DNA from: Gemmatimonadaceae bacterium
GTDB taxonomy: Bacteria > Gemmatimonadota > Gemmatimonadetes > Gemmatimonadales > Gemmatimonadaceae
Assembly: GCA_036496605.1 (NCBI GenBank)
Contig: DASXKV010000040.1
Coordinates: forward strand, 1 to 60,743
Length of the DNA stretch: 60,743 nt
Direction: 5' to 3'
The notes below the pieces were generated by a model. That model worked only from the letters and a program-made list of their open reading frames with translations, searched no databases and was not told where the DNA came from. Both the position numbers and the translations under genes were made by a program. Positions 22,832-60,743 of this stretch are shown piece by piece. Positions within the stretch are counted from its first letter, which is position 1. Every line of letters starts with the position of its first letter.

Positions 22832-22996
22832 CGAGAGGGGCTAGGGGCTAAGTGGGATGGGCTAGAGTCCAGGGGCTAGGGGCTAGGGAGTATCTCGAGA
22901 CGAAGCGTCTATGAGAGTTTCGCGCGATCATCCATCGACGCTTCTTCCGACCTTCCGCTAGCCCCTAGCCCCTAGCCCTCTAGCCCCTCGCCAAAT
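22832..22996. repeat. Inverted GGGGCTA / TAGCCCC heptad arrays
   Basis: The left arm (22836-22890) has interrupted GGGGCTA units. The right arm (22957-22990) has the complement TAGCCCC, four to five units with one variant. About 65 bp of ordinary sequence separates the arms. The element fills the whole accC-pilT spacer, so the accC leader could form a very stable hairpin or, on the G-rich strand, quadruplex structure. The unit is the same as in the cca stop-codon array at 5484-5511. Confidence 0.85.
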
Positions 22997-39944: not shown

Positions 39945-40250
39945 GGCGGAAAGCTCGTCTGAAGGGATCGAGGGCGCAACAGAGGGCAGAGAGTAGAGGG
40001 TAGTGGCTAGAGGGTAGCGGCTAGCGGGTAGCGGGTAGTGGGTAGAGGGTAGTGGGTAGAGGGTAGAGGATAGAGAGTGGAGAGTGGAGAGTGGAGAGTG
40101 GACAGTGGAGAGTGGAGAGCTGTGCGTTCTCCAAATTTTGACACTCTGTTTCTGTCTACTCTCTACTCTCCCTACTCTCTACTCTCCACCCTCATGACGG
40201 TGCGGTGACGCTCTCTCATATGCTCCGGGCACCTTCGCCCACGGTGCCTA
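39945..40250. repeat. Heptad arrays (GTAGAGG/AGAGTGG) with partial inverted complement, upstream of IVP gene
   Basis: The left block, about 39978-40120, is made of tandem 7-mers such as GTAGTGG, GTAGAGG and, from 40074, AGAGTGG repeated about six times. After an AT-richer gap (CCAAATTTTGACAC near 40131) comes the complementary block 40153-40193 (CTACTCT / ACTCTCC units). It separates the divergent hutH and IVP genes. The plus-strand IVP gene starts 57 bp after the right block. Confidence 0.85.
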
Positions 40251-40685
40251 ATGCGGATGCGACGATATCAGGATCTCGAAGTCTGGCAGCGCTCGATGGA
40301 GCTGGCACTCACGGCATATCAGTTCACCACCTCGTACCCCGATGCTGAACGGTACGGACTCGTCTCGCAGACCAGACGGGCTGCTATCTCGATTCCATGC
40401 AATATTGCCGAAGGACAGGGACGGTCTACGGCCGGTGAATTCCTTAACCATCTCTCGGTGGCACGCGGTTCACTTCAGGAATTCGAAACGCTCGCGATCC
40501 TGGCTCACCGGCTCACATATACAAACCAGAAGCAACTCGACTTATTGCTCGAGGGTTCCGAGAGCATTAGCCGCATGTTGACGGGACTGCGAAAGTCAGT
40601 CGAACGCGCTCAAGGCGCGCCGGCCGGCAGAGCCGTGGAACCGCGGGGAAGATCGAAGGCCAAGAGTAAACGCTATACGCTATAG
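40251..40685 (+). CDS. Four-helix-bundle protein, S23 ribosomal / 23S rRNA intervening-sequence (IVP) family
   Basis: A 144-residue member of the four-helix bundle S23/IVP family. Typical stretches are RYQDLEVWQRSMELA at 5-19, QTRRAAISIPCNIAEGQGR at 40-58 and SVARGSLQEFETLAILAHR at 69-87. Classic members are encoded within intervening sequences of 23S rRNA; many are free-standing and of unknown function, probably RNA- or DNA-binding pentamers. The C-terminus adds a basic tail (RGRSKAKSKRY). The gene lies alone between opposed neighbours and is bracketed by heptad arrays on both sides, suggesting a mobile or RNA-structured cassette. See findings. Confidence 0.88.
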   Translation: MRMRRYQDLEVWQRSMELALTAYQFTTSYPDAERYGLVSQTRRAAISIPCNIAEGQGRSTAGEFLNHLSVARGSLQEFETLAILAHRLTYTNQKQLDLLLEGSESISRMLTGLRKSVERAQGAPAGRAVEPRGRSKAKSKRYTL

Positions 40686-40690
40686 GCTGC

Positions 40691-40829
40691 GCTCTACCAT
40701 CTGCTCTCTGCCCTCTGCTCACGGCCTCTACTCTCTGCCCTCTACTCTCTGCCCACTGCTCTCCGCCCTCTACTCTCTGCCCTCTGCCCTCTGCCCTCTA
40801 CCCACTGCCCTCTACTCTCTGCCCACTAC
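40691..40829 (+). repeat. CTCTGCC/CTCTACT heptad array downstream of the IVP gene
   Basis: About twenty pyrimidine-rich units run on the plus strand: CTCTGCC, CTCTACT, CCACTGC and similar, in 7- and 14-bp periods. They are the complement of the GTAGAGG/GGCAGAG-type units upstream of the IVP gene, so the whole gene sits between inverted arrays. The last unit overlaps the C-terminal codons of the lipoprotein gene on the minus strand. Confidence 0.85.
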
Positions 40830-55877: not shown

Positions 55878-56152
55878 AAAGCACTCCGGTTCGGTCGTGA
55901 TGTCCGAGATAAGCCGCACACAGAAGACGAATTGCCAGCGCGGAAGAAACGGGGTTGGCAGAGGGTTGAGGGTGGCGGGTGGTTCGTGCTTGGTGGTTGG
56001 TGGTTGGTGGTTGGTGGTTGGTGAAAAGGAATGGCCGGCGCAAAGCGCCGGCCTTCCGCACCACCAGTTACCAACGACCAATGACTCACCACCAGCCAAC
56101 AACCAATGACTCACCACCAGCCAACCACCGCCCACGAACGACCCGCCACCAA
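55878..56152. repeat. TTGGTGG heptad array, GC-rich hairpin and complementary CCACCAG array
   Basis: Four perfect TTGGTGG units and one variant run from 55990 to 56024. A perfect 9-bp hairpin GGCCGGCGC-AAA-GCGCCGGCC follows at 56033-56053. Then comes a complementary region of CCACCAG/CCAACC-type units (about 56059-56129), including two copies of CAATGACTCACCACCAGCC spaced 25 bp apart. It sits between ssb and the LysM gene. The unit is close to that of the smaller array near 2623. Confidence 0.85.
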
Positions 56153-60514: not shown

Positions 60515-60589
60515 GCATGGGGGCCGGGATTTGTTCGGGAAGCCAGGCACTCGGAATGGGCGAACGAACGCCGGATGTCGCGGAAGAAA

Positions 60590-60743
60590 GGCGCGTCGAA
60601 AGGAGCGCGTCGAAGACGGCGCGTCGAGAACGGCGCGTCGAGAACGGCGCGTCGAAAACGGCGCGTCGAAAACGGCGCGTGGAGAACGGCGCGTCGAGAA
60701 CGGCGCGTCGAGAACGGCGCGTCGAGAACGGCGCGTCGAGAAC
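60590..60743 (+). repeat. 14-bp tandem array, at least 11 copies, reaching the window edge
   Basis: The unit is GGCGCGTCGAGAAC with small changes (GAGAAC/GAAAAC, one GTGG for GTCG; the first two units are more diverged). Eleven units fit exactly from 60590 to the last base, and the array may continue. Fourteen is twice seven, linking it to the heptad arrays in the window. It lies upstream of uvrB on the minus strand. The frame is not kept (14 is not a multiple of 3), so it is not coding. Confidence 0.92.

Follow-up and report, generated by a model that had tools for sequence, protein, structure and literature searches.

Introduction

The closest described systems to the locus analyzed here are the intervening sequences (IVSs) of 23S rRNA genes that carry an S23p open reading frame (ORF), as found in Leptospira and Coxiella. 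The Coxiella IVS holds an S23 ORF, has complementary ends and contains tandem GACAGAT heptamers in its 5' stem, the copy number of which varies between strains (PMC4990558). A role of the ORF in mobility was proposed by Ralph and McClelland (1993), as cited in PMC4990558. Proteins of the S23/IVP family are common, and their function is so far unassigned.

Heptad arrays are also known from intergenic DNA. The heptameric STRRs or G4 repeats of Nostoc and Xanthomonas and the TAACTGA repeats of Beggiatoaceae are intergenic heptad arrays with no known function (PMC4692102, PMC4679880), and xanthomonads have 70-75 convergent inverted pairs of them (PMC4692102). They resemble the arms described below in being intergenic, of heptad period and arranged in inverted pairs, but their authors found no association with mobile elements and made no link to S23/IVP or to mobility (PMC4692102, PMC4679880).

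Concerning mobile elements of comparable architecture, MITEs and REPINs are likewise short gene-less hairpins derived from a coding element, although for the IVP element we identified no DDE or Y1 transposase partner. Eukaryotic foldback (FB/TU) elements have long inverted termini of short direct repeats, variable in length, with an optional gene in the loop. The IVP element shares this anatomy and differs in being bacterial, in its heptad period, in having no transposase gene and in its target duplication of 5 bp, as compared to 9 bp in FB/TU. Our search covered open-access papers, and we found none in which IVP elements are described as free-standing, in which their target duplications are reported or in which heptad arms are recognised as typical of IVP genes in general. 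As a general class of mobile element, the IVP foldback appears to be undescribed outside ribosomal genes.

Here we describe a locus from a Gemmatimonadaceae bacterium that is likely to be a copy of a widespread mobile "IVP foldback element", whose IVP protein would recognise and deliver its own heptad hairpin. The element has one gene, S23/IVP, which occupies a hairpin loop; the arms of the hairpin are inverted tandem arrays, usually of heptads.

Organization of the element

The window, i.e. the whole stretch of 60,743 nucleotides that was analyzed, contains the inserted unit at 39950-40829 (no strand assigned), with a left edge that is approximate only. Its 5' arm (39977-40126, plus strand) is a G-rich tandem heptad array of TAGAGGG, TAGTGGG and TAGCGGG units followed by GAGAGTG, as determined from the sequence, TRF and a period-7 scan. 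An inner complementary, C-rich block of CTACTCTC units (40148-40195, minus strand; sequence, period-7 scan and RNA fold) could form a nested hairpin with the 3' part of this arm. It is followed by the gene for the IVP/S23 four-helix bundle of 144 residues (40251-40685, plus strand) and by the 3' arm (40687-40829, minus strand), a C-rich tandem heptad array of CTCTGCC and CTCTACT units that is the complement of the 5' arm. When the whole stretch is folded as RNA, the outer arrays are predicted to pair across the IVP gene with -423 kcal/mol, compared to a mean of -328 for 20 shuffles (z = -12.3), so that the ORF is enclosed in a stem of terminal complementary sequences, as in rRNA IVSs. An earlier note on this DNA, made from the letters alone, had proposed the same layout of array, complementary block, gene and complementary array, with coordinates that agree with TRF and the period-7 scan within a few bases. 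Its supposition that the arms pair across the gene as a large stem-loop RNA is borne out by the predicted fold, and its view of the locus as a free-standing relative of the rRNA IVS architecture fits an IVP gene that lies between complementary arms outside rRNA, as well as the heptamers of the Coxiella IVS (PMC4990558).

No rRNA family match (Rfam) was obtained in the window or at the other IVP loci of its genome, and an rRNA IVS by location inside a 16S or 23S gene was rejected on this ground for the window and all tested loci. The IVSs of Leptospira and Coxiella are alike in having the ORF between stem-forming inverted repeats, in their size of about 430 nt and in their sporadic distribution. 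They differ in that the window element and nearly all others studied here lie between protein genes (no Rfam rRNA match at the tested loci), that the arms are here much longer arrays, and that a target duplication and filled and empty sites are documented here. Since the anatomy of the Coxiella IVS is the same, rRNA IVSs would, by analogy, best be seen as members of the IVP foldback class. IVP is the only ORF of note in the window element, in which no known transposase or recombinase was detected, and no phage relatives were found.

The IVP protein and its relation to Avd

In profile searches the product of the ORF belongs to the S23/IVP family, with 118.5 bits to PF05635 (cut-off 33.8) and a match to TIGR02436. 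Its AlphaFold model, based on an alignment from which plasmid-derived proteins were left out, is a four-helix bundle (pLDDT 96) that superimposes on the pentameric Xanthomonas S23 protein 2gsc with a TM of 0.93. The match to the Avd protein of diversity-generating retroelements (DGRs) is weaker (TM 0.79 for 4dwl, and about 0.8 for 4dwl and 8ub7). Residues Q40, N51, E54 and E77 are invariant in IVP, and the phylum tree of IVP is poorly resolved. We know of no catalytic motif for DNA cleavage in IVP.

The likeness to Avd raises a retro-mobility explanation, in which a resident reverse transcriptase (RT) would use the IVP-bound hairpin RNA, comparable to the DGR template RNA bound by Avd, to make copies at new sites. 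The fold match (TM 0.79), the large predicted RNA hairpin and the fact that rRNA IVSs are transcribed speak for it. However, RVT_1 is found in only 40 of the 249 genomes of the phylum, namely in 17 of the 131 with IVP and 23 of the 118 without it, which argues that no RT is needed and by which an RT as obligatory partner was rejected; furthermore, no RVT_1 is present in G021 and G008, genomes with 10-11 IVP copies. We consider this explanation improbable. Avd and IVP share the four-helix fold, but their identity is about 10%, and neither an RT nor a template or variable repeat lies near the IVP element, so that the hallmarks of a DGR are absent: no RT gene is located beside the window element, and the only RVT_1 matches of its genome are on another contig (C38).

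A separate observation concerns the gammaproteobacterial genome G578 (1.5 Mb), in which there are about ten Avd-like matches (L338, G578:C1:3000-9500). The ten-copy IVP-like cluster was considered as a set of rRNA IVS copies and rejected, as these are DGR Avd-type genes. The one that was read in this DGR-rich genome has no heptad arms and is located between the end of a variable-repeat-like gene and an RT-like reading frame, which suggests many DGRs in one small genome.

Inverted arms around IVP genes

Inverted flanks were scored at IVP loci and at three controls, i.e. cross-pairs (the upstream flank of one locus with the downstream flank of another), PIN genes of the same family and random windows of 435 bp from the genome of the window (n = 400). 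Within the Gemmatimonadota a score of at least 15 is reached by 42 of 64 IVP loci, as compared to 1.25% of the cross-pairs, 0/29 PIN genes and 0/400 random windows, and 43/65 loci lie above the 99th percentile of the cross-pairs. With inverted flanks of this strength at none of the PIN genes or random windows, coincidence is excluded. Plasmid-borne IVP loci of cyanobacteria and Azospirillum reach this score in 12 of 16 cases, the others scoring 13-14.5 with heptads visible, and a multi-phylum scan of 80 loci in more than a dozen phyla (Acidobacteriota, Planctomycetota, Chloroflexota, Cyanobacteriota, Nitrospirota, Proteobacteria, Armatimonadota, Hydrogenedentota and others) gave inverted arms at 50/78. 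Pooling these three sets, arms are present at 109 of 158 IVP loci and in 1.5% of cross-paired flanks; Gammaproteobacteria, counted outside this pool, have them at 15 of 28 loci.

The best period is 7, 14 or 21 in 82 of the 104 arms long enough to be evaluated (control about 18%), and the G-rich arm lies 5' of the IVP gene in 99 of the 109 armed loci. The repeated unit, mostly a 7-mer, is specific to each locus and matched on both arms. A common register, G-G-N-R-N-Y-A, scores 3.04 on average against a letter-shuffled null with mean 2.43 and maximum 2.56, a modest agreement obtained by fitting that we regard as a lead only. In the loops examined, from more than a dozen phyla, IVP is the only gene found.

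The earlier note had expected that arrays would flank IVP genes more often than other genes, and had named IVP genes of relatives lacking such flanks as evidence against a cassette. The counts above strongly support the expectation, and most IVP genes of relatives do carry arms, with the qualification that arms were undetectable at about a third of the IVP loci. Arm-less IVP genes occur at conserved loci (L042/L047/L051 and L247/L254/L271) and, in several gammaproteobacteria, next to a tRNA gene (L315, L325, L326, L334 and L335), the latter apparently one conserved, immobile lineage. Such positions suggest that these copies are immobile and possibly domesticated.

Copies and arrays in the genome of the window

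The genome of the window contains 11 IVP genes, and strongly inverted flanks are present at 8 of the 10 testable loci. Heptad arms were found at four of them, each with a different heptad (GGGCGAC, TAGAGGG, GGTGGTT and TTAGGGG), whereas a second IVP subfamily has arms of 14- to 17-mers (L008, L049 and L050). IVP copies within one genome are divergent, with no sign of a very recent burst of transposition.

Background scans covered 461-512 kb of this genome. They yielded 50 period-7 arrays in 461 kb, as compared to 0-5 for periods 5-6 and 8-13, and 36 arrays of period 14, a multiple of 7, in the same 461 kb. All 18 inverted array pairs have the G-rich arm first, none the C-rich one, and the loops of most pairs have 0-125 nt and no gene; hence, the hairpin population seems to extend beyond the IVP-bearing pairs, which look like its coding members. 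In being scattered over intergenic DNA the hairpin pairs are similar to REPINs, and one family of the phylum has Y1 together with IVP; both observations would suit hairpins mobilised by a Y1 (HUH) transposase in the manner of REPIN/RAYT systems. Nevertheless, the window genome with its 11 IVP genes has no Y1 match (PF01797), for which reason a Y1/RAYT partner was rejected there, and the IVP-rich G021, G008 and G040 are not among the Y1-matching genomes, making this explanation hardly credible.

Within the window, heptad arrays without an IVP gene lie at 22836-22992, an inverted pair of the GGGGCTA type, and at 55954-56129, where a GGTGGTT array is followed by a C-rich 25-mer array. At 60585-60743 there are 11 copies of a 14-mer, AGAACGGCGCGTCG, which run past the end of the contig. 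Contig C10 of the same genome starts a short distance before a 14-mer-class IVP gene, behind which lies the reverse-complement 14-mer array. The array at 60585-60743 is thus probably the 5' arm belonging to a second IVP element, which the assembly divided between the two contigs. On contig C4 of this genome (L019-L033) heptad hairpins are dense between about 20 and 84 kb, and hardly any lie at 100-260 kb.

Filled and empty sites

In a genome of the same genus (G002), the gap between hutH and the lipoprotein gene measures 107 bp and contains neither IVP nor heptads, and G043 and G011, too, have an empty gap at this place. In G002 the minus-strand gene next to the gap ends in ...RVPVMP*, and it ends in ...RVP* in the window, where its TAG stop (reverse complement of CTA, 40826-40828) is supplied by the outermost unit of the 3' arm. 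As the stop comes from the heptad and the gene is shortened relative to G002, the gene was there first and the array entered at its 3' end, where it marks the right edge of the element. The window locus thus has an empty site in relatives, which are too diverged for the left edge and the duplication to be read. In G016 the gap downstream of hutH (L189) contains another repeat, GTCATCCCGAGCGAGCGAAGCGA, in tandem with an inverted copy, i.e. another hairpin repeat family at the orthologous place.

Filled and empty pairs for the whole arm-IVP-arm unit come from conjugative plasmids of cyanobacteria. Site A is filled in Trichormus and Scytonema, with flanks 97.6% identical to the empty relative over the aligned part: the empty sequence is AAAAAGTAATTAACAAAT, and the filled one reads left flank AAAAAGTAAT, element AAATCAGAATTCAG...IVP...GAGTTCTTCTTT and right flank GTAATTAACAAAT, with a 5-bp target duplication, GTAAT. 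At site E the empty sequence is AGGTTCTAGGTTATGC and the filled one has left flank AGGTTCTA, element AATCAGGAG...IVP...TTCTGGA and right flank TTCTAGTTATGC, the 5-bp duplication being TTCTA. The features of an insertion element, a precise filled and empty site together with a target duplication, are hence present in these cyanobacterial relatives. Clean duplications were obtained at these two sites only: sites B, C and D have both filled and empty relatives and duplications that are not clear-cut, site D being ambiguous, and at sites D and F they are unreadable because the empty relatives are too diverged. Site A also hosts a hairpin without a gene (L184, Brasilonema plasmid) and a 3'-truncated copy that still retains the start of the IVP reading frame (L178, Nostoc plasmid), and L180 is a further gene-less hairpin at a site also found filled. 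The IVP gene with both arms is, therefore, gained or lost at a site as a single unit. This is what the earlier note had in mind with a cassette that should be absent as a whole from orthologous loci, and gene and both arrays are indeed missing together in G002, G043 and G011.

These comparisons also bear on the idea that the arrays are ordinary slippage-born microsatellites (STRRs), in or beside which IVP genes land or survive. Some of these genomes are rich in heptad arrays, such arrays are known as STRRs in Nostoc and Xanthomonas (PMC4692102), and most of those in the window genome are gene-less, all of which speaks for this idea. It is contradicted by empty sites that lack the arrays as well as the gene, and the two complementary and polar arms of an IVP locus share a heptad that is particular to that locus; we therefore take it to be very improbable.

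IVP elements further occupy tight gaps inside operons, e.g. nrdB/nrdA, cas6/cas4, cas10/cmr3 and tra genes, those within cas operons being L162, L163 and L174. A "23S rRNA IVP" domain has been listed as CRISPR-linked (PMC10910872), and may correspond to such cas-operon passengers.

Proposed mechanism

One element family with 78-82% DNA identity, which ends at the arm ends, is present at three unrelated sites (L164, L169 and L172), and its IVP genes show a dN/dS of 0.10-0.14, suggesting that the protein is important for the element or for something that its copies have in common. This bears on a passive foldback or MITE-like unit moved in trans by an ordinary resident transposase, with IVP as passenger or helper. 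Target duplications of 5 bp are typical of DDE transposases, gene-less hairpins exist, and IVP has no known catalytic motif, all in line with such a unit. Against it stand IVP as the sole gene in the examined loops of more than a dozen phyla, the purifying selection on it at scattered sites and termini that vary in sequence between elements, unlike the common end expected of a transposase. On balance we regard movement in trans as unlikely.

For the IVP foldback element delivered by its own protein, which we prefer, the following mechanism can be envisaged. The pentameric IVP, a structural relative of DGR Avd, would recognise the heptad hairpin of its own element, folded as single-stranded DNA or as RNA, and would bring it to new positions at gene boundaries, probably assisted by a nuclease or polymerase of the host; a 5-bp staggered break at the target would then be filled in. 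As IVP has no known catalytic motif, another enzyme may do the chemistry, which may come from the host or from IVP itself through the invariant residues. Afterwards, the arms would grow longer and more uniform by slippage and hairpin-templated copying. Those 23S rRNA IVSs that carry S23 ORFs would be members of the class whose position within rRNA is tolerated, as RNase III would cut the hairpin out of the transcript.

With respect to the arms, the heptad is unchanged between close relatives and differs between the orthologous filled loci L066/L068, L228/L252 and L083/L090 of related species, where the arms still match within each locus (scores of 21-33 for own arms and 8.5-11 for swapped ones). 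Either the arms were homogenised, by hairpin-templated copying and slippage, or the site was re-invaded; in both cases the complementarity of the arms is kept.

Implications

A bolder reading, possible and held here only tentatively, is that IVP founds a new class of mobile element, a transposase-less, one-gene foldback in which a pentameric, Avd-like ring copies its own heptad hairpin into gene boundaries, and from which rRNA IVSs, many bacterial heptamer arrays and perhaps DGR Avd derive. By analogy, the heptad arrays of Xanthomonas and Nostoc may be gene-less relatives of the IVP element.

Where rRNA IVSs come from and what bacterial heptamer arrays do are questions that are decades old, and IVP genes and heptad arrays are here joined in one mobile element found in many phyla. 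The role in mobility that Ralph and McClelland proposed for the S23 ORF becomes directly testable. Finally, an IVP gene that is found in a cas, nrd or tra operon may have been inserted there and may not belong to the system in question, which should be kept in mind when such operons are interpreted.
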